DNA from: Ceratothoa steindachneri
Taxonomy: Eukaryota; Arthropoda; Malacostraca; Isopoda; Cymothoidae
Assembly (NCBI GenBank): GCA_963969495.1
Contig: OZ018317.1
Span: 34,751,726 to 34,815,725, forward strand
Direction of reading: 5' to 3'
Length of the DNA: 64,000 nt
Shown here: positions 5,150 to 59,320 of the stretch, one piece after another
Numbering within the stretch: the stretch's first letter is position 1
Layout: each line of letters opens with the position of its first letter
Program-made: the position numbers and the translations under genes
The notes under the pieces: model-generated
What the model saw: the letters and a program-made list of their open reading frames with translations, nothing else
Told to the model about the DNA's origin: nothing
Databases searched by the model: none

Positions 5150-6645
5150 AGGTATCATCTTTGTTGACCTCTTTTCCCCGATTCTAGCAGGTTGATATCA
5201 TCTCTAAAATGTGGGTACCATGCTTGTATTTCATACTCAAGATCTGGCCGAGAGTTTAAGGATAACCATGTGTTATAGAGTTTAAGGATAACCTTACTTT
5301 TGTAACTATCGTTTCTCTTAATGAAGCCTAACACTCTATTTGCTTTATTTTATGCCTCAATAAACTGCTTACACAATATCAGTGACTACTACTTCTAAGT
5401 CCTTCTTATACTCTACTGTAATCAGTCAATGCCCGTATATTTCATAGCTAAATTTTCAATTACATCTTCCTATGTGCATATCTTTACATTTTTGAAGACT
5501 AAAAGTCATTTTCCACTTATGTGCCAAAGGAAAAAAGCTTTTTAATTCACTCTGCACTTCAAAGTTTTCCTCAACTTCTTTTACAGAAGCTACCAATTTG
5601 GTGCTATATGCAAAAATTGATACTTTGCTATTTACTGCTATCCAATTCAATACTTTCCCACATATCTCAAGCCTTTTTAACTTATTAACCAATCCCCTAT
5701 GTGGAACCTTGTCATAGGCCTTGCTAAAATATTAATAAATTACATCTACATTCTTTCCTTTATTGTTTTGTTACATAATTTCCAGTAAGTTTATTAAATA
5801 TGATCTACCTGTCTAAATCCATGCTGAAAGCATACCTCCTTTTAAATACCTTCTTAAGAATTTTGCAAACTATAGATGTTATAATTATTCCGGTACTCTT
5901 TACTTCCCTTCTTAAAAATGAACGCAATCTTTGCTATTTTCCAATCAATTGGTACTTCTCCCAAATCTAGTGATCGAGTATATAATTTTTCTAGAGCTAC
6001 TGCAATGCTTTCCACACCTTGACGTAACCTAGAATGGGTGTCATCTGGGCAAGAGGCCTTACTAATATTTAACTCAATTAATAATCTGTTAATGATTTCC
6101 CTATCATCATTAATGGTATTCAACACCTCCTTCCCTAAAAAAGAACTACCATAAGGTAAATATTTCAAATTCTCTTCGGTAAATACTGAAGCAAAATGAT
6201 CATTAAGTGACTCAACTTCTTCCTCATCAGATTCCTTCATAACTCCTTCATATTTAATAGGCCCTATGTTATCTCTGATAAATTTTCTATTAATTTTATA
6301 ATAACTAAAATAAATTCTTGGATCCTTATTGTTGTTCTGAGTTAATTTCTGGTATCCTTTTTTTTTCTTAATAATCTGACGTAGCTCATTCTGAGTCGAT
6401 CTAAAACGATTTAGAGTCACGACAGTATCTTCCATCTACAATCTCTTGTGTGCCATCATCTGAGAAATTTTTCTAGCTATCTCCTGATTCCACCTCAATG
6501 GCTTCCAGCATTTCTCCCTAATGACATTCATTCCAATACACTGCTACTGAACTATGCTTAATATATTCCTAAAATTATTCCACATCTCAAAATGATTCTT
6601 ACCACTGAATTCTACATCAAAGTCAACCTGTTTAAGCATGTTTTG
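5150..6645 (-). pseudogene. CR1-like LINE, internally deleted
   Basis: Minus-strand relic of a CR1-like reverse transcriptase, aligned by eye with the better copy at 43005-45480. It starts near 6640 with the linker (FEMWNNFRNI), then 6435-5854 carries FASVFTEE and IAFIFKKGSKEYRNNY, matching the RT N-terminal region. Motif A is FSKAYDKVPH near 5710-5740. Next, LNWI runs in frame straight into SKVSIFAYSTKL, where the other copy has about 50 more residues including VPQGSVLGPLL, so RT motif B is deleted. The YxDD box FADD has become FAYS. The downstream KCKDMHIGR is kept, and RPDLEYEIQAW (like VRPHLEYAVQFW) is readable at about 5185-5235. Not functional. Confidence 0.8.
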
Positions 6646-7529: not shown

Positions 7530-8587
7530 TGCTACAAGGAACTACAAGGAAAATAAGTACCCTAGAAGACCTTACAGTCCAATCAATGAGGGTGCCTTTG
7601 GGCTAACTGTTGAGCAGTCACAGTTCTGCACAACGACTTAAGTACCCAAACGGCCACTTTTCAAGACTTTGTCCATTCTTGACTTGAACTGATCAACAGA
7701 ATTGCTGTTGACAACTTCCACTGGAAGTGCGTTCCAGCTACCACAGATGCTGTATGTGAAAATTTACCACACAGATGACGGTTGTAACGCTCCCGTTCAA
7801 GTTTGTAGCAGTGATTTCTCGTTCTGCCCTAACTACTCGTAAGTTGGAAAATATCCGTGTAGTCTACATTATTGAAGCCCCGAAGTATTTTAAATACTTC
7901 GATAAGCTGACCACGCAGTCTCCGGGTTTCTAACGAGAACAGATCTAATTCCCTTAATCTATCATCGTAACTTTTGTGTCTGATAGAGAGAATCAGTTTG
8001 GTTGCCCTGGCTTGCACACGGTTCACTCTCGCAATATCCATTCGAAACGAAGGACTCCAAAATTGTACGGCATACTCCAGGTGCGGTCGGACAAGTGAGT
8101 TGTACAAACACAGTACAATCTCCTTGTTACGATATCCAAACTGGCGCTTTATGTAGCCTAGTATCCTTTGGGCCTTTTTTCCGCTTCAATGCACTGTTTC
8201 GAGAACTTGAGGTCACTAGTGATTGTTACACTCAAGTCCTTCTCAGTGTCGGTGGATTAAATAGCAGTGCCCTTAAGGATATTCTGAGATTGGGTGTTTC
8301 TGTGGCCAATATGCATCACTTTGCATTTCCTCACGTTAAAAGGCATTTGCCACGTGTCCGACCACCCTCCAATCTTCCCAAGATCTTCCTGCAGGCAGGC
8401 AGTATTTCCATCTTTGCAACGTTCATACCAAGCTTGGTATCGTCTGCAAATTTGGAAATCTTGGCAACCATGTCACCGTCCATGTCGTTGACGTAGATGA
8501 TGAATAGTAGTGGTCCCAGGACAGAACCTTGAGGTACCCCTCTAGTAACGGGCACCCACTTAGAAGCCTGTCCATTCACCACCACCT
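7530..8587 (-). pseudogene. 5'-truncated CR1-like LINE inserted in a purine tract
   Basis: The minus-strand copy begins abruptly at about 8587 inside the RT domain (VVNGQ...) and runs to a 3' end at about 7530. It keeps VPQGSVLGPLLFIIYVND (motif B region) and FADDTKLG (catalytic YxDD box), then breaks frame. At 8107-7829 it reads NSLVRPHLEYAVQFWSP and RLRELDLFSLETRRLRGQ, the conserved C-terminal block. The 3' untranslated part matches the copy at 45360-45480 and ends in two about 10-bp units (TTCCTTGTAG), the short terminal repeat typical of CR1-type elements. Both flanks are the same GA-rich tract. 5' truncation is the usual outcome of target-primed reverse transcription. Confidence 0.85.
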
Positions 8588-8790
8588 GTGACAGAAAATG
8601 AATGCTAAATAGTGAGAGAAAGAGAGATAAAGAATGATTAATAGAGTGAGAGAGAGAAAGAGCGATAAAGAAAGTGAGAGAGAGAGAAAAAAAAAAGAAT
8701 GATGATTTGTTTGGGCATAAATAGTGATAAAGAGAGAGATAGAGCTAATAAATAAATAAATAAAGAATGATCAAAGAGAGGCGATTAAAT
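8588..8790 (+). repeat. Polypurine tract, right part
   Basis: Continuation of the GAGA-type tract after the LINE, with AAATAAATAAAT near 8750. Confidence 0.75.
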
Positions 8791-19833: not shown

Positions 19834-21318
19834 TCAGCATTTTTTGCTAGAATTTAGTACTTTATTTGAAATCGATTCAGTGGATGCTAAACTTAGGTCT
19901 TGCGTATCTTAATCTTCCGTTCGGAGGTCTTTAATAGCCAGTTGAATGAAAACGATTTCTCTTTTCAATTTTTCTAATACAGCTTTCCTTTCCTAAAAGC
20001 AAGCTCGAAGTCTGTCCAATCGTTCTATAGCACTCTAATTTGCATTCTCTAGCGATTCTTTGTCTTGCTGAATCTTCTAAACTTCCTCGTCCCCTCCGTT
20101 CATCTTTCCTTCAGTTTTGGTGATGGTCATTTTCGTTTTGTCAATCCTAGTTATTAAGTTGTTGATAATATCTTATATATTTTCTTTTTCTGAGGTGAGT
20201 TGATCCAGTTGTTCGCGTTGGGATTTGATGGTTTAAAATAATTCGAAAAAGCAAGCCTTCAATTTTTCTTCTTCTTGTGTGGCCTCAGTCACTTGTTTTT
20301 TTTAGTTTTCCAGTGTTTGCTATAGGGAGATGATTTCTGGTTTAGCATTTCTGTTTGTTTCTTACCAACATTGCTCTTCCTTTTGGACTGTTTTGTGTTT
20401 TTCTTTCGCTTCTTTTGTCTTTTCTTCCTCTTATTCCAGACGAGCAGAATCCTCTTGGTATTTCTTCTTTAACGCCTTAAGTTCTTTGTCTAAATTAACC
20501 TTCATGGAACTGAAACATTTAATATCTTACTTCCCTTTCCTCATAAACTCCTCCAACTTTGCAGTTAGTTCTTCTTTTTACTGTTCCTAATTACAGATAA
20601 TCAATTTTATATCTTTCTTTTCATTTTTTATCTTACTTAAGTCTTTTTTGAGACATTCAGCAAGAGATTAACTTTCATTCCTCATTTCGGAGAGTCCAGA
20701 TTTGAACTGTGAAACCTCTTCATGATTATCCTGAAGATTTTTCTTCAGTTTCTCTAACAGTTCCTACTCTTGTTCAAGCTGTTTTTTTAGAGTATACTCC
20801 TGATTTTAGAGTCTCTTTTTGGAGGTTAGTACACAAATTAAATCCTTGTTCCGTCTTTTTTCGCACTCTAGCGAAATTTCTACTTCGGCAGCTCCTACTG
20901 AAAGTTTAGTAGGTGAATTAATAGGGTTTTTCAGTTAGCCACGATTTTTGAAGAAGTTTCCATTTGAGTAGTCCTCAGGAGAGGGACCATAACTTTTGTA
21001 GTTTGTAGTTTTATTGACGATTCCGTTACGCATTGTGGTAATAAGTAGTTCTCTTGAACCAAGTTAATAATGAATTAAGTAATTTTGAGGTGGATCGATT
21101 TGAGCGGTTAGTTTAAAATCGAAATAAATTTCTCTATTTTCCAACTCAGATAATTCATTAGTATGACACTCAGTGAAGATGGCTTTATTAAGAATCTTGC
21201 GGGCTTTTTAGCCGTTGAACGAAGGTTGAACTTTCTATTTGAGTAATTTCCGAAGAGAAGTAACTACTGGAAAGGGAAAAACGAAAAGAACTACAATAAT
21301 TAACTTTTTAAATTACAT
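19834..21318 (-). CDS. Secreted coiled-coil protein in a TAA/TAG-sense (ciliate-type) code
   Basis: One frame, no frameshift, ATG at 21318-21316 to TGA at 19836-19834: 494 residues if TAA and TAG are sense. In-frame TAA occurs 14 times and TAG 7 times; TGA is absent until the end. About 22 ordinary CAA/CAG codons are also present. Residues 1-21 form a signal peptide (X = TAA at codon 2): MXFKKLIIVVLFVFPFPVVT. Residues about 50-162 look like a small extracytoplasmic domain (IYFDFKLTAQIDPP; two Cys near 152 and 162). From about 165 to 465 the chain is a Lys/Glu/Leu/Gln heptad coiled coil (EKLKKNLQDNHEEV; REQLDQLTSEKEN). The tail ends NSSKKC. Nearly every TAA/TAG sits where Gln or Glu suits a coiled coil. 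Under the standard code it would be a pseudogene with 21 stops yet no indels. Secreted coiled-coil proteins fill ciliate extrusive granules (trichocyst or mucocyst matrix proteins); such a role is a guess. The source (integrated ciliate DNA, assembly join or relic) is unresolved. Confidence 0.8.
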
Positions 21319-22282: not shown

Positions 22283-22293
22283 CACACACATAT

Positions 22294-22388
<95 letters not shown>
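22283..22388. repeat. (CA)n(TA)n(TG)n composite microsatellite
   Basis: A short CA block, (TA)n at about 22301-22373, then a TG block: a second self-complementary composite. Confidence 0.95.
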
Positions 22389-22390
<2 letters not shown>

Positions 22391-22558
22391 AATAACACCA
22401 CTGTGGAAGAGCGTAGTATTTATTATCTCGAGACCAGTTTCGGCATGGAGTTTGTCATGCCAGCCTCAGTAGAACACTAAGAATACATGACAAACTCCAT
22501 GCCGAAACTGGTCTCGAGATTATAAATACCAAGCTTCTCTACAGTGGTTTTATTTACA
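22389..22558. repeat. Fold-back cassette D between TA arrays
   Basis: Inverted arms of about 70 bases (22389-22459 and 22486-22557) around a 26-base loop. The inner about 36 bases are almost perfectly complementary and include CTCGAGACCAGTTTCGGCAT. TA arrays flank both sides. Confidence 0.92.
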
Positions 22559-22591
22559 TATTTAGAATCTGTCATTGGATTTAACAATTTT

Positions 22592-22597
<6 letters not shown>

Positions 22598-22687
<90 letters not shown>
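22598..22687. repeat. (TA)n microsatellite
   Basis: Pure TA array between cassettes D and E. Confidence 0.98.
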
Positions 22688-22689
<2 letters not shown>

Positions 22690-22720
22690 CGAAAAATTAT
22701 TGCAGTAACGCAATTAATTA

Positions 22721-22899
22721 TGCGGTTAAAAGGCTATTTTTGGCAAACCCAGTCTTCTTCAAAGCCTTCAGAAGGAGCTCTTCTCACATGCACAAGAAGG
22801 TAACACGCTTATTTTAAGTGTTACCTTCTCGTGTATGTGAGAAGAGCTTCTTCCGAGGGCTTTGAGGAAAACTGTGTTTGCTAAAAATAACCTTTTAAC

Positions 22900-22902
<3 letters not shown>
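22721..22902. repeat. Fold-back cassette E between TA arrays
   Basis: Arms at 22721-22806 and 22818-22902 around an 11-base loop, with a few mismatches. The inner stem is AAGAAGGTAACAC against GTGTTACCTTCTC. TA arrays lie on both sides (22598-22687, with about 33 bases between, and 22903-22938). Unrelated in sequence to cassette D. Confidence 0.92.

Positions 22903-22938
<36 letters not shown>
22903..22938. repeat. (TA)n microsatellite
   Basis: Pure TA run abutting the right arm of cassette E. Confidence 0.95.
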
Positions 22939-25765: not shown

Positions 25766-27618
<1,853 letters not shown>

Positions 27619-38159: not shown

Positions 38160-39180
<1,021 letters not shown>

Positions 39181-41000: not shown

Positions 41001-41700
41001 TGAAATAAGTTGGGTATTAGCCTAATTTAATCATTTTCGTGCTCTTACCTCGATTAATTTAATTGCCCGTGTCTGCACTTTTTTCCCCGTCTACATGTCC
41101 TTTCCAAGGGAGGGTGATACGACATATACACAATATTCTAAATGTGGTCTTACAAGTAACTATACAAAGAAAGGAGGCTCTCTCGATTTCAAACATGGAG
41201 CTGTTGTTTGATGTAACCCAGTATTTTCATCGATTTTTCTACCTCTATAAAATGTTTTGATTATTTTACGTCACGCATAACGAGAACTCTTTATCTTTTT
41301 CGTTCTCTGACGTTACCAAGTTATAATCTTGTACTGTGTATTATTTTCTCTGATTTTCATACTCTATATGCATCACTGTGCACATCTCTACATTGAATGG
41401 TTTCTACCAGGTATCAGACCATTTACCTATTATTTTAGATCAATTAGATTTTAGCTATATCTCAGGAATTGGCCACACAGGCTCCTAGTTTATTATCGTC
41501 TGAGAACTTAGAAATGCTTCGACGAATTCCCGCAGCTGTTAATATTATATAATAAACAACCGCGGAGCAATCACTGAGCCCTATGGAACATCTCTTGTTA
41601 TCTATTTCACTATATTTTCCCAAATTGTCGAAGGCTTTTCTGAACTCTGGTAAATAATATCTACTTTTTGTGTTTACTAGGGATAGAAAACATATTATGG
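41001..41700 (-). pseudogene. CR1-like LINE reverse-transcriptase fragment
   Basis: Going right to left: FRKAFDN (motif A, near 41640); RDVP*GSVIAPRLFI, where the family has VPQGSVLGPLLFI and the Gln codon is TAG (near 41590); KFSDDNKLG, a variant of the FADDTKLG catalytic box (near 41495); and LLVRPHLEYCVYVVSPSL (near 41130). Pieces are separated by indels, and the C-terminal end is probably the block at 40300-40400. Confidence 0.75.
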
Positions 41701-43004: not shown

Positions 43005-45480
43005 GGTATCGTCATGGGTGATTTCAACACACAAGTTGACTAAGAAACCAGAGAACCCTGTGGCGAGAACGCACTACTCCTGGAGTTCACGAACAACGAG
43101 TTCCTAACTCAATGGGTGAGAGAGCCAACGAGAGGAGACAATATCCTCGACTTGGTTTTCACCTCTGACGATGACATTGTTGAGGCCCTTTCTGTTGGCG
43201 AAGAGCTCGGTGGCAGTGACCACCGACTAATTAGATTGGTAGTCAAAGTTCCCAAGGCAGAGTCTGCAACTAGTAAATCAAGGAAACTCGATTTGAGAAG
43301 AGCAGACTTTGCAGGTCTACGCGCGGGACTGACTGACGTGAGGCTAGAAGAGTTCGATGCTGTTGAAGACTCTTGGAACAGTTTCAAAACCACATTCATG
43401 AGTCTTGAATCGCGTTTTATCCTTCTGAAATTCCCCCGTCGGTCCTCTGTTCAACCAAAGTGGTTTAGTTGAGAAATCGGGCAACTGCTTAGGGAGAAGA
43501 GAAATGTGTACCGGCAATCGAAGATCTCAGGTGACTTTGACGAATACCGGAGGCTAGCCAGGAGAGTGAAGTCCAGCATAAAGGCGGCTAAGCGGTCTGA
43601 AGAACTCCGAGTGGCGAGGCTCTGTAAAGAGAATCCCAAGGAGTTTTTTGGATATGTGAACAGCCGTAAACCAATCCGTCGAACGATTGGCCCTTTGAGG
43701 AATGAGGAGGGGACATTAAAGCATTCAGATGCAGGAAAAGCTAACCTCCTTAACGACTACTTCTCTTCAGTGTTTACTGAAGAGCGTGGTCCCATTCCCC
43801 AGCCGACGGATTCCTACTCGGGGGAAAAGCTGGAGGCAATGGACTTCACCGGAGGAGAAATAAAGAAAAAGATCGCTGACCTAAAGACGAATAGGTCCCC
43901 CGGACCGGACGGGTTTCTACCTAAAGTGTTGAAAGAAGTGTGCGATGAAGTATCACGACATCTGTGCGCTATCTTTAACATGTCAAGCCTGACCAAATGC
44001 GTTCCTAGAGACTGGCGTGAGGCAAAGGTGACTCCTATCTTCAAAAAAGGAGACCGTAACCAACGGTCGAACTACCGACCTATCAGTCTGACTTCGATAG
44101 TCGGTAAACTCATGGAAAGCATCATGGTGGACAAAGTGACGTCGTATTAAGAGTCAAACCTGCTACTGAGGAGTTCCCAGCACGGCTTCCAAAGGCAACG
44201 GTCATGCCTGACGAACCTTGTGGAATTCTTCCACTTCGTGTTCAGTGAGCACGATCGGGACAAGGCGGTGGATGTGGTCTACCTAGACTTTAAGAAAGCC
44301 TTTGGTAAGGTACCACACCGCCGCCTTCTCCGGAAAGTGCGAGCGCTTGGCATAGACGGAAAGGTAGCCGGCTGGATCGAGAACTGGCTAAGTGGCAGAC
44401 GGCAACGGGTGGTGGTGAATGGACAGTCTTTTGAGTGGGTGCCCGTTACTAGCGGGGTGCCTCAAGGTTCTGTCCTGGGACCACTACTATTCATCATCTA
44501 CGTCAACGACATGGACGGTGACATGGTTGCCAAGATTTCCAAATTTGCCGATGATACGAAGCTTAGAATGAACGTTGCAAAGGATGGAAATACTGCCCAC
44601 CTGCAGGAAGATCTTGGGAAGATTGGGGAGTGGTCGGACACGTGGCAAATGCCTTTTAACGTGGGGAAATGCAAAGTGATGCATATCGGCCACAGAAACC
44701 CCCAATCTCAGTATATCCTTAAGGGTACTGCTATGGAATCCACCGACACTGAGAAGGACTTGGGTGTAACAATCACTAGTAACCTCAAGTTCTCGAAACA
44801 GTGCTTCGAGGCGGAGAAAAAGCCCCAAAGGATGCTAGGCTATATTAAGCGCCAGTTTAGTTATCGGAACCAGGAGATTGTACTGTGCCTGTAAACTCAC
44901 TTGTCCGACCGCACCTGGAGTATGCCGTACAATTTTTGAGTGCTTTATTGCGAAAGGACATCGCGAGATTGGAACGCGTACAAGCCAGGGCAACCAAGCT
45001 GATTCCCTCTATCCGACATAAAACTTATGAGGATAGACTAAGGGAATTAGATCTGTTTTCTCTGGAAACCCGTAGACTGCGTGGTCAGCTCATCGAAGTT
45101 TTCAAAATACTTCGAGGGTTCGAAAATGTTTACTACCGGGATATTTTCACACTGAGTGAGAACAGAACGCGCAATCACGGCTTCAAACTTGAACTGAAGC
45201 GTTACAACCGCAATCTGTGTGGAAATTTTTTCACCTACAGTATCTGCGGTAAGTGGAACGCACTTTCAGTGGAAGTTGTCAACAGTGAATCTGTTGACCA
45301 GTTCAAGTCAAGACTAGAAAAAGTCTTGAAAAGCGGCCGTTCAGGGACGCAAAACAATTGAGCAGCCATGTGCCTGTTCGATTGCTAGTGCAAAGGTACC
45401 CTCTTTGAATGGACCGTAAGGTCTTCTAGGGTACTTACTTTCCTTGTTACTCCTTGTTAATCTTATGTCTTTTATAGTGA
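43005..45480 (+). pseudogene. CR1-like LINE, best-preserved copy
   Basis: Near-full ORF2-type protein lacking most of the endonuclease. It starts at GDFN (43020), then GSDHRLIRL (about 43211-43237), closing the APE-type endonuclease. The linker follows with VFTEE and KVTPIFKKGDRNQRSNYRPI. RT motif A is VVYLDFKKAFGKVPH (about 44274-44318), motif B GVPQGSVLGPLLFIIYVND, and the catalytic box FADDTKL (about 44544). Then come KCKVMHIG, VRPHLEYAVQF and, at the end, WNALSVEVVNSESVDQFKSR. One frame runs from 43014 to 44894 except for TAA at 43041, TGA near 43470 and TAA at 44148; one base is lost at about 44894 (TGTACAAC in the 7.5 kb copy, TGTAAAC here). The 3' end carries CTCCTTGTTA repeats. Inactive but young-looking; it serves as the local family reference. 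Confidence 0.92.
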
Positions 45481-51110: not shown

Positions 51111-52396
51111 CTTTTTATGGGTAGCCGTTAGGTACCATTGTATTTTAAGTAGGCCCTTTGTCAAATCACCCAAACGAACACGTGCATATGTATAGAGTCA
51201 CAAAAATATATATGCTCTCACGTGTGGTTTTTTGTAGTTAACTTGATTTGTTCATGCCTGTTTTCTATTCACACAAAAACAGGTTTTTGCTGCCTCTGCG
51301 GCCATCGCGCCGAAATCGCACATGATTTCACCTTTCGCTGAGAGAAGTCAAACGGCTGAGAGATTTTGTGTATATATGTGTGTGTGCGACTCACAAACAC
51401 CAGGTGGCTCGATGCAACTCCTCATCCCCCCCTCTCTGTATGTAAGCACGGTTGCCTCGATCCTTTCGCCGCAATTCGTCCCTGAGGAACTCAGGAAGGA
51501 GCCGCCTCTTTTTAACCCCCATTCACTTCCTCTGCCCCAGCCGAGCACTGACCAAAAGATCCCTATCCGACCCTTAGAGATAAGTCAAAAGGTATTAAGA
51601 TATGACAGTTATATTTATCAATTAATATTAATGCCTCGCGTTGACCGTAACTACGGGTATCTTAATGTATCGTAATTCAATGTCCTCAATTTCTCGAAAG
51701 GCACATCTGTGTCGGGATATTGTTTGGTGACAGGTATAGAGAGGTACCAACGTTGATATGGCAGACAAATGAAAGTGATGAGATCCTTAGTTTTTTTATG
51801 TAGAGTACAACATTGAATAGTGAGGTGGAGGGGGGGGGGACAGACAGACTAAGACATTGACCTTAAAATGCAAAAAATATCATTTAAGTTATATAGGCTA
51901 AACAACCTCAGTGTATTCCTTCATATTCGTTCCAGCCTACTTCTTATCTTCTGTACTATGACGTCATACTTTCTCCTTGGATGTCGCTATACATATAAAA
52001 TGAGCTACTTTTACAATTCCCTCGAATTGCCGCAAATTTTCAAGAAATACCATACTTAACTCTCACTCCCCCAGCTCCCACTATCACCCCCTAAAAAATT
52101 GAAATAGAGGAGAAACACTTCACCTAACCAAAATGGTTCATTTCGGAAACTTTTGATTTTATTTCGAATGAGAGGAACAAAGAACTATGCAATCTAAATT
52201 ACGAATCAGGAAGATATATAAATTATAGTAAACATGAAAGTATAGAAGTCAAAGTAATCTCCCCCCTTCAAAAAAATATTATTACTATAATGATATAGAA
52301 CTCAAAATTTAACTTAAAAATTCGTCTTGAAGAAAATTCGTTTTTTATTACTAGGGGTCATCACCAGTACGGGGTCACCTTTTAGGTACTCTCTGT
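51111..52396. other. Unassigned DNA
   Basis: Open frames on both strands at 51322-51675 show no recognised domain. Confidence 0.35.
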
Positions 52397-53216
52397 GTTG
52401 GCTATTGATTGGCTATATTTTGATGATATGTTGGGTATTTATATGGGCTTTATGTTGCTATATGTTGAGTATATATGAGCTATATGTTGGATATGCTCAG
52501 TAAATATGGGCTGTACGTTGGCTAAATTTTACTTTTATATTGGTTATATGTTGCATATATGTTGCCTATATATTTGTCTATATGTTAGTTATATATTAGC
52601 TTTGTCTATATATTGTCTATATGTTGGTTATTTATTGGCTATATGTTCATTATATGTCGGCTATTTATTGATTATATGTTGGTTATATATTGTCTCTACG
52701 TTGGATATATTTTGGCTATATGTTGCTTCTATATTGCTATATTTTGCCTATTAATTATCTACGTGTGGCAACATTGGCTATATTTGCTGCATGTTGGCTA
52801 TTAATTAACTATATGTTGCTATATTTGGCTACATGTTGGCGATATATTGCCTATACGTTGGGTATATATTGGCTATTGTTGGCTGTAGTGTAGCTATAAG
52901 TTGGCTAAATATTGGCTATAAAGTGGCTCGATGTTGCCTATATATTGGTTATTTATTGGCTATAGGTTGGCTATGTATTGGTTATATATTGCCTATATTT
53001 CGTCTATATATTGCTTATATGATGGCGAAATATTGGTCATATGTTGGCTATATAGTGGTTCGATATTTGCTATATAGTGGCTCGATATTTGCTATATATT
53101 GCCTATATGTTGGTTATATATTGGCTATTTTTTGGCTATGTTATATATTTTCTCTATATGTTGCCTATATATTGGATATACGAGTATTTTGGTTATATAT
53201 TGACTATATATTGTTC
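52397..53216 (+). repeat. 11-bp minisatellite, about 74 units
   Basis: Consensus TTGGCTATATA/G. From about 52950 to 53150 the 11-base register is almost unbroken, with substitutions at a few positions; elsewhere single-base slips occur. Because 11 is not a multiple of 3, an array without stops opens all three frames, giving Tyr/Ile/Leu-rich frames that should not be called genes. Confidence 0.95.
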
Positions 53217-53420
53217 TAAGTGCACGACGAAGGCTTAGATCTTGAAAAAGATCTAAGTTAAATTTGGAGCTTTATAATAACTAGTTTGATATAATTTATT
53301 AAATATAATATCAATTTGGAGAGGAAGTTAGAAGCATGTTAAATGAGACAGTTCACTTCCGTGAAGTAATCAGAGCAGGAGCGGCATTTTAAGCCTTGAT
53401 AAAATTTCACTTTATTGCGA

Positions 53421-54329
<909 letters not shown>

Positions 54330-58689: not shown

Positions 58690-59275
58690 GAATAGTATTA
58701 CCTCAAAAGACATTACTGACCATACCGAGGATGTACTATTTTGAGAAATCCGTAAAATGCAGCATGAGAAAACACATACCAAAGGCGAAGGCTTTGAAAA
58801 ATGACACAATCAGGAAATTTTAATTGTATAGTTGAAACCTATTTATTTGTTTCTATATTCTATGTTCTATACATATCATAGATTACATCATCTAGTCTAG
58901 ATTTGAACTGTTCTAAAGACGAACTATTCACCATCTCGACCGGATGACGATTCCATGTACCGCAAATCTTATACGAGGAGTAGTTCTGATATGGAAGTAG
59001 TCGGGAATGGGGGCAAACCAGCTTGTAACCATGGTTACGAGTCAAATTTGTCTTCAACGTGTAATTCCTCCTGCAATCTACGTTCTCAACACCCCTTAAA
59101 ATCTTGAAGGTCTCTATTAGCTGGCCTCATAATCGGCGAGTCTCCAGAGAGAAAGCCCCAATTTCTGAAGCCAATGCTGATAGCCTTTGCGCCTAAGTGA
59201 ATGAATTAACTTGGTGGCCCTAGCCTGGACTCGTTTGAGTCTATCTTTGTCCTTACGCAGGATAGGGGACCAAAG
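58690..59275 (-). pseudogene. CR1-like LINE 3' fragment inserted in a GA tract
   Basis: Going right to left: PILRKDKDRLKRVQARATKL (about 59260-59200), then frame shifts, then 59057-58860 with RNHGYKL, ICGTWNRHPVEMVNSSSLEQ and FKSRLDDV, the conserved C-terminus. The 3' end reads AACTCCTTGTGACTCTCT in minus orientation, sharing AACTCCTTGT with the other copies, and joins GAGAGAGAGAGT directly. Confidence 0.82.
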
Positions 59276-59320
59276 AGAGACAGAGACAGATAAAAATTAG
59301 GAGAGAAAGGAAGAACGAGG

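Follow-up and report, generated by a model that had tools for sequence, protein, structure and literature searches.

An intact coiled-coil gene with in-frame UAA and UAG codons in an animal chromosome, possibly captured from a protist with another genetic code

We found that a 494-codon open frame (P0001) on the minus strand of an animal contig, at positions 19834..21318 of the window (the whole 64-kb stretch analysed here), runs intact from ATG to TGA if its 14 TAA and 7 TAG are read as glutamine, and would encode a coiled-coil protein that is probably secreted. Judged from its sequence, P0001 is a real gene of a lineage reading UAA and UAG as sense, most likely glutamine, with UGA as the stop. 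The best explanation in our view, with a probability of about one half, is that DNA of a UAR=Gln protist was repeatedly captured into the animal germ line. This explanation builds on what we observed, namely the frame, the coiled coil, a relative, purifying selection under UAR as sense and decayed TAR-bearing copies in the assembly; from these we infer the donor, the repetition of the transfer and the lack of function in the animal.

Our recount reproduced exactly the coordinates, strand, ATG and TGA ends, codon number and TAA and TAG counts given in the initial annotation, and confirmed that no TGA precedes the terminal one. P0001 therefore reads like the genes of NCBI table 6, with TAA and TAG as sense (21 TAR) and TGA as the stop (0 internal); the other two frames of the same strand contain 11 and 13 TGA. 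Between stops the TGA-free run measures 536 codons. Comparable runs of at least 540 codons arose in 2, 3, 2 and 5 of 30 Markov sequences of 64 kb each (orders 1, 2, 3 and 5, respectively), or 12 of 120 overall, and we therefore dropped frame length as evidence for a gene, since it is not significant alone. None of 3000 order-2 sequences with the composition of the P0001 stretch itself was TGA-free in a fixed frame. In third base, the TAR codons (A:G 14:7) resemble CAR (16:6), AAA:AAG (50:18) and GAA:GAG (43:16), and the codon ratio TAR:CAR (21:22) resembles TTR:CTR (19:17). TAR behaves as an ordinary codon family in P0001. A chance open frame in A-rich DNA would draw on the ease with which such DNA yields long TGA-free runs, but it has to face the heptad periodicity, the gapless relative and the synonymous bias presented below, and we regard its probability as negligible.

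The predicted protein starts with a putative signal peptide, judged by eye (residues 1-21; window 21256..21318, minus), which has a TAA as codon 2, followed by a region of mixed composition (residues 22-165; 20824..21255, minus) for which sequence and homology search gave no homologue. Residues 166-475 (19894..20823, minus) form a heptad-repeat coiled coil with one register skip, as defined by heptad power and register fit. The heptad power (period 3.5) of these residues is 4.52, compared with 1.03 +/- 0.31 in shuffles, and no value as high was reached in 5000 residue shuffles or in 1000 order-2 DNA Markov sequences; the other two frames of the strand gave 1.26 and 0.72. Over the whole length the value for P0001 is 3.27, compared with 2.87 for the antisense frame in register with it. 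The near-continuous coiled coil in P0001 is far beyond chance, which bears out the heptad-rich coiled coil noted in the initial annotation. With TAR scored as near-neutral, the fitted register needs one skip in 310 residues and places 3 of 16 TAA/TAG at core a/d positions, against 28 of 33 Leu, a share raised in part by the reliance of the fit on hydrophobic residues. A low-confidence AlphaFold2 model made without an alignment (mean pLDDT 57.3) predicts helices at residues 144-260, 267-402 and 411-493. The putative signal-peptide codons (window 21265-21290, minus) also resemble a 3' splice site, with a pyrimidine tract followed by CAG, and P0001 may have an upstream exon before its start.

A protein search of the assembly with P0001 returned at least 40 matches. 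The best after P0001 itself is L002 on contig C8 (33% identity over 333 residues, gap-free), and the remaining ones are short. L002 is a divergent, intact-looking relative on the plus strand (L002:1387-2586 = C8:111728741-111729940) with 10 TAR and 0 TGA in 400 codons, the other two frames of its strand having 12 and 9 TGA. No counterpart of residues 1-135 of P0001 was matched in L002. In the aligned part, P0001 has 16 TAR sites and L002 has 7, with 1 common to both. The only stop-free match in the protein searches spans 29 residues, and we rejected the idea of exons belonging to an intron-bearing, standard-code host homologue.

At the DNA level, the assembly was searched with the gene plus some 130 bases on either side. 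The complete query recurred nowhere but at its own place, and the 41 other matches fell in two coding blocks only. Block 1 (20397..20514, minus) is matched at 6 other places in the genome, and the TAA of codon 296 is kept in all 5 copies covering it. Block 2 (19934..20155, minus) is matched at 35 other places, with the TAG of codons 414, 428 and 442 kept in the consensus. These 41 matches amount to 37 loci, because four block pairs lie less than 300 bases apart. When loci L003-L008 were compared, 5 of 6 had roughly 400 bases or more in common, among them a 3' part absent from the window, and L005 shared about 150; block 2 thus lies inside a dispersed repeat in 5 of the 6 loci. In this repeat (L003, L004, L006, L007 and L008) the common 3' part starts at about GTGCCGGTCCCAAGCCCGGATAAATAGG, with the gene block on its 5' side.

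L002 has decayed relatives of its own on contigs C309, C16, C8 and C1. For four loci set against the 9.5 kb surrounding L002, similarity is confined to its coding region or begins 3 bases ahead of it. One relative, L017 (C309:18832-19456, on a 22-kb unplaced contig), is 85% identical; it contains a TGA and a frameshift and has lost 21 and 30 bases in two deletions. Another (L019:2380-2476, on C8) is 99 bases long and matches the start of L002 at 95% identity, with a 2-base deletion and CAA in place of an L002 TAA; no other L002 part was matched in 4.5 kb near it. P0001 is hence a member of a small family comprising one intact-looking relative and many decayed pieces. Since the decayed pieces carry the same TAA/TAG where covered and lie 6-18% off their consensus, the family has a long history in this genome.

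A codon-usage scan found no further TAR gene, known copies aside, in the stretches covered on C1 (124 kb) and C8 (109.5 kb) or in the 22-kb C309, a scan from which genes of other usage could escape. Both intact genes look isolated on their contigs. The longest TGA-free frame of the window (52361-54148, minus; 35 TAR) was considered as a second gene and rejected, as it consists largely of (AT)n and a degenerate tandem repeat.

To compare P0001 with its decayed copies we used 12 of the 37 loci (those fetched) and 101 codons for the window gene against the copy consensus. Relative to their own consensus, the copies carry 54 synonymous and 178 non-synonymous differences (pS 0.105, pN 0.092, ratio 0.88, divergence 6-18%); the 12 compared copies drift near-neutrally. 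The window gene, by contrast, differs from the consensus over these 101 codons by 16 synonymous and 6 non-synonymous changes (pS 0.265, pN 0.025, ratio 0.09; Fisher 5e-6 against the copies), and the four TAR codons covered (296, 414, 428 and 442, of 21) are already TAR in the consensus. The synonymous bias and the presence of TAR in the consensus argue that, along the path from the window gene to the source of the copies, selection acted on the protein and TAR was read as sense. These counts indicate that UAR counted as sense when the gene was translated, probably with the meaning glutamine. As the 12 loci were found by similarity to the gene, pN may be biased down, but a small bias is indicated by the near-neutral ratio that the copies show among themselves. 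Moreover, the synonymous distance of 0.265 exceeds the copy divergence of about 0.10, which argues that the copied gene was a sister of the window gene and not the window gene itself. This source, now unseen in the assembly, was probably such a sister whether the family was transferred or resident.

Indels point in the same direction. The copies carry 23 indels in 2550 nt, 17 of them frame-breaking, and at this rate unselected drift as long would give 13.4 indels in 1482 nt (probability of none, 1.6e-6); the gapless alignment of P0001 and L002 has 0 indels over 333 codons. On the L002 branch, a three-way comparison of 59 codons, which is a small sample, gave 4 synonymous and 1 non-synonymous changes, against 3/5 and 11/20 for the decayed L017 and L027; the pairwise pN/pS of L002 against four decayed pieces is 0.31-0.48, also in small samples.

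These data weigh on the possibility that P0001 is a decayed host gene whose stops are mutations. Such decay is attractive in that CAR becomes TAR by a single C-to-T change and that the P0001 TAR sites are mostly non-Gln in L002. However, P0001 shows none of the marks of a pseudogene (TGA, frameshifts, pN/pS near 1), the four TARs covered (of 21) also stand in the decayed-copy consensus, and selection stayed strong. The initial annotation had argued that decay of a host gene would produce TGA and indels as well, and our simulations agree: decay to 21 stops gave on average 5.2-5.9 TGA and 79-123 indels, assuming an indel rate of 0.1 per substitution, with 3 of 900 runs free of TGA and 0 of 900 free of indels. 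A standard-code homologue with CAA, CAG or GAA at the TAR sites, which the initial annotation had named as the finding that would count against it, was not found for P0001. For L002, seven comparable TAR codons correspond in decayed pieces to CAA/CAG in 4/7, GAA in 1/7 and TAA in 2/7. We consider decay of a host gene highly improbable.

The same seven L002 codons (CAR 4, TAA 2, GAA 1) inform on the meaning of TAR. In the reverse direction, a decayed piece has TAG for one CAG of L002, and TAA takes the place of AAA/GAA at four codons. The TAR-CAR exchange between L002 and the decayed pieces, as read from their alignment, points to glutamine. Within the coiled coil, TAR falls at heptad positions e and g in a ratio of 5:0, against 4:11 for Glu (p 0.008), and it avoids the core (3/16). 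Lys, Arg and Thr agree with its heptad counts no less well than CAR. Between the two residues proposed earlier, glutamine gains from the CAR found in 4/7 comparisons and from the preference of e over g, unlike Glu, which is less favoured; glutamine is the preferred rather than the proven choice. Complicating this picture, 1 of 16 TAR sites of P0001 corresponds to Gln in L002, compared with 9/19 for its CAR sites (p 0.01), which places TAR at less conserved positions; viewed from L002 there is no such difference (TAR 2/7, CAR 8/27). L002 also under-uses TAR, with TAR:CAR at 10:30 against TTR:CTR at 22:8 (p 9e-5). TAR may thus have become a Gln codon more recently than CAR, or be less favoured, and persist where the protein tolerates it.

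The assembly is chromosome-scale (3.93 Gb in 529 contigs), and the window, which contains no N, corresponds to C1:34751726-34815725 in a contig of 256.8 Mb. LINE copies lie on both sides of P0001 within the window, in pieces of differing decay (43044-45361, 7534-8589, 5284-6468, 41052-41601 and 58881-59320) that are usable as a control for host decay; piece 7534-8589 is 86.5% identical to part of the one at 43-45 kb. The relatives of LINE 43044-45361 are animal-type: the best 120 of 7432 matches are mostly unnamed environmental entries plus named animals, including turtles, birds, a chimaera and an amphipod, with one entry named as a bacterium. In a standard-code search, 12 non-self LINE pieces of the window have CAR at 20, TAR at 3 and other codons at 17 of their Q sites; a code-6 search of the same pieces gave CAR 20, TAR 6 and other 21. 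Their stops (TAA 8, TAG 7, TGA 4) fall at many residue kinds. As an internal control, the Q-site counts and the TGA among the stops make the host look like a standard-code organism with ordinary decay, and the host animal otherwise seems to use the standard code. The central claim of the initial annotation, an intact frame needing UAR as sense in DNA with animal-type LINEs, is supported.

Elsewhere in the window, frames resembling remnants of Tc1/mariner transposases were seen by eye at 26380-27298 and 38683-39176, and 22290-22905 holds inverted repeats with (AT)n tracts that resemble small non-autonomous transposons. At the gene edges, candidate target-site duplications amounted to A/T-rich words of 10-13 bases, none of them convincing, and a telomeric array was not observed.

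Protist reads built into the animal assembly, by misassembly or contamination, would fit the single intact copy of each gene and the L017 relative on a 22-kb unplaced contig. However, P0001 and L002 are joined in the assembly to host DNA on both sides, deep in contigs of 257 and 212 Mb, LINE copies flank P0001, and decayed pieces with the same TARs occur at many places, in 5 of 6 examined inside a repeat, which is hard to explain in this way. With P0001 in a 256.8-Mb contig, a relative in a 212-Mb contig, 41 other matches and no N, we find misassembly or contamination, as proposed in the initial annotation, quite unlikely. The recent event that it had offered in the same breath holds at most in part, as decayed TAR pieces 6-18% off their consensus imply a long history. 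Overall, the initial annotation is partly supported: right on the code and the foreign look of the gene, too narrow on recency and contamination.

We found no donor or homologue among 5.8 billion proteins, including nr and UniRef, in a word-limited search in which 8000 and 444 candidates were scored; neither did this search return a match from ciliates or other UAR=Gln species. Starting from residues 20-180 gave no homologue, and viral and prokaryote contigs contained no relative. The protein searches depend on shared exact 5-residue words, and the contig scans on back-translation of short peptides; distant or TAR-written relatives could therefore escape both. Hits to Pfam KIF9 (3.4e-4) and KxDL (7.5e-4), both under cut-offs, PHROGs (0.0013) and PDB (0.37) were taken as coiled-coil noise. 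Of the ciliate-type origin suggested earlier, the code stands, and a ciliate is a candidate donor; no homologue was found outside the assembly. Among the literature matches listed, such genes in an animal were not reported. Chromidina ciliates are described from the renal appendages of Loligo and Sepia (PMC4988119).

If the family were instead an old resident translated in the animal, UAA and UAG in its mRNAs would mean glutamine in some tissue, either because a suppressor tRNA decodes them or because U-to-C editing turns UAR into CAR. One resident family accounts for the dispersed pieces with the fewest events, needing one arrival or none; the selection on P0001 and on the L002 branch (4/1, a small sample) is what one would see in a live gene, and the four-fold-site GC lies near the host composition. 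On the other hand, two pattern searches built on the tRNA-Gln backbone found only normal Gln anticodons (4/4 and 6/6, the latter 4 TTG and 2 CTG) and no UUA or CUA, the LINE pieces of the window prefer CAR over TAR at Gln sites (20 vs 3), and P0001 is one uninterrupted frame. An exact pattern for a suppressor anticodon arm had 14 matches (control 1), and the 5 of these 14 that were fetched yielded no tRNA, 4 being LINE-like by eye and one another stretch. We know of no animal precedent for reading 21 in-frame stops. Residence with translation is a possible but unlikely reading. A gene- or tissue-limited code by which the animal reads UAA and UAG as glutamine in this family, lasting long enough for TAR build-up under purifying selection and for a repeat to disperse pieces that contain TAR, strikes us as rather doubtful.

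Repeated transfer, our preferred reading, requires no new decoding in animals; it requires several arrivals of one family, where long residence in the host requires one. UAR=Gln DNA would come from an intimate protist partner, either a ciliate or a parasite (a syndinian dinoflagellate, for instance), and would reach the germ line on several occasions, much as mitochondrial DNA gives rise to NUMTs. Older arrivals would decay, and one would have been captured and dispersed by a host repeat. The two intact genes would be the youngest arrivals, carried as inert passengers in the animal. Ciliate nanochromosomes are gene-sized donor molecules, and pieces confined to the coding region would suit donors of this kind, although the protein search favours such pieces and the DNA search had short flanks. 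Against transfer, the four-fold-site GC of the two genes (0.335 and 0.364, vs 0.365-0.394 for host DNA) is host-like and resembles that of a long-time resident.

Compared with the ciliate-type nuclear code (NCBI table 6, UAA/UAG = Gln), P0001 is alike in having TAA and TAG as sense, TGA as stop and Gln as the best-supported residue. Unlike the genes of table 6 organisms, it stands in the chromosome of an animal with standard-code-looking LINEs, and no ciliate homologue was found. The trichocyst matrix or Grl granule-core proteins of ciliates have a signal peptide, a long coiled coil and a few hundred residues, and belong to a multigene family. P0001 resembles them in its putative signal peptide, long coiled coil, size and family, but general searches found no similarity, its coiled coil contains Cys and its N-terminal region is unplaced. 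In NUMT-like capture, foreign pieces of varied divergence and length are scattered and decay, their source having been selected under another code. The pieces described here are likewise scattered and decaying, but their source would be the nuclear gene of another eukaryote. Finally, in Amoebophrya sp. ex Karlodinium veneficum, in-frame UAR, thought to be Gln, is reported in part of the genes, along with suppressor tRNAs and in-frame UGA (PMC12005148). The presence of UAR in only some genes is shared with our case, but here there is no internal TGA, and the searches based on the tRNA-Gln backbone found no suppressor tRNA.

Gene finders discard stop-bearing frames, and genes like P0001 stay invisible as a result. 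If transferred, the family would provide direct evidence of repeated DNA flow from an other-code eukaryote into an animal germ line, its origin being marked by the code. If read in the animal, it would represent a first case of nonstandard nuclear decoding of such kind in a metazoan, none being known to us. In either case, the question can be tested directly on the two loci, their decayed copies and the TAR sites.
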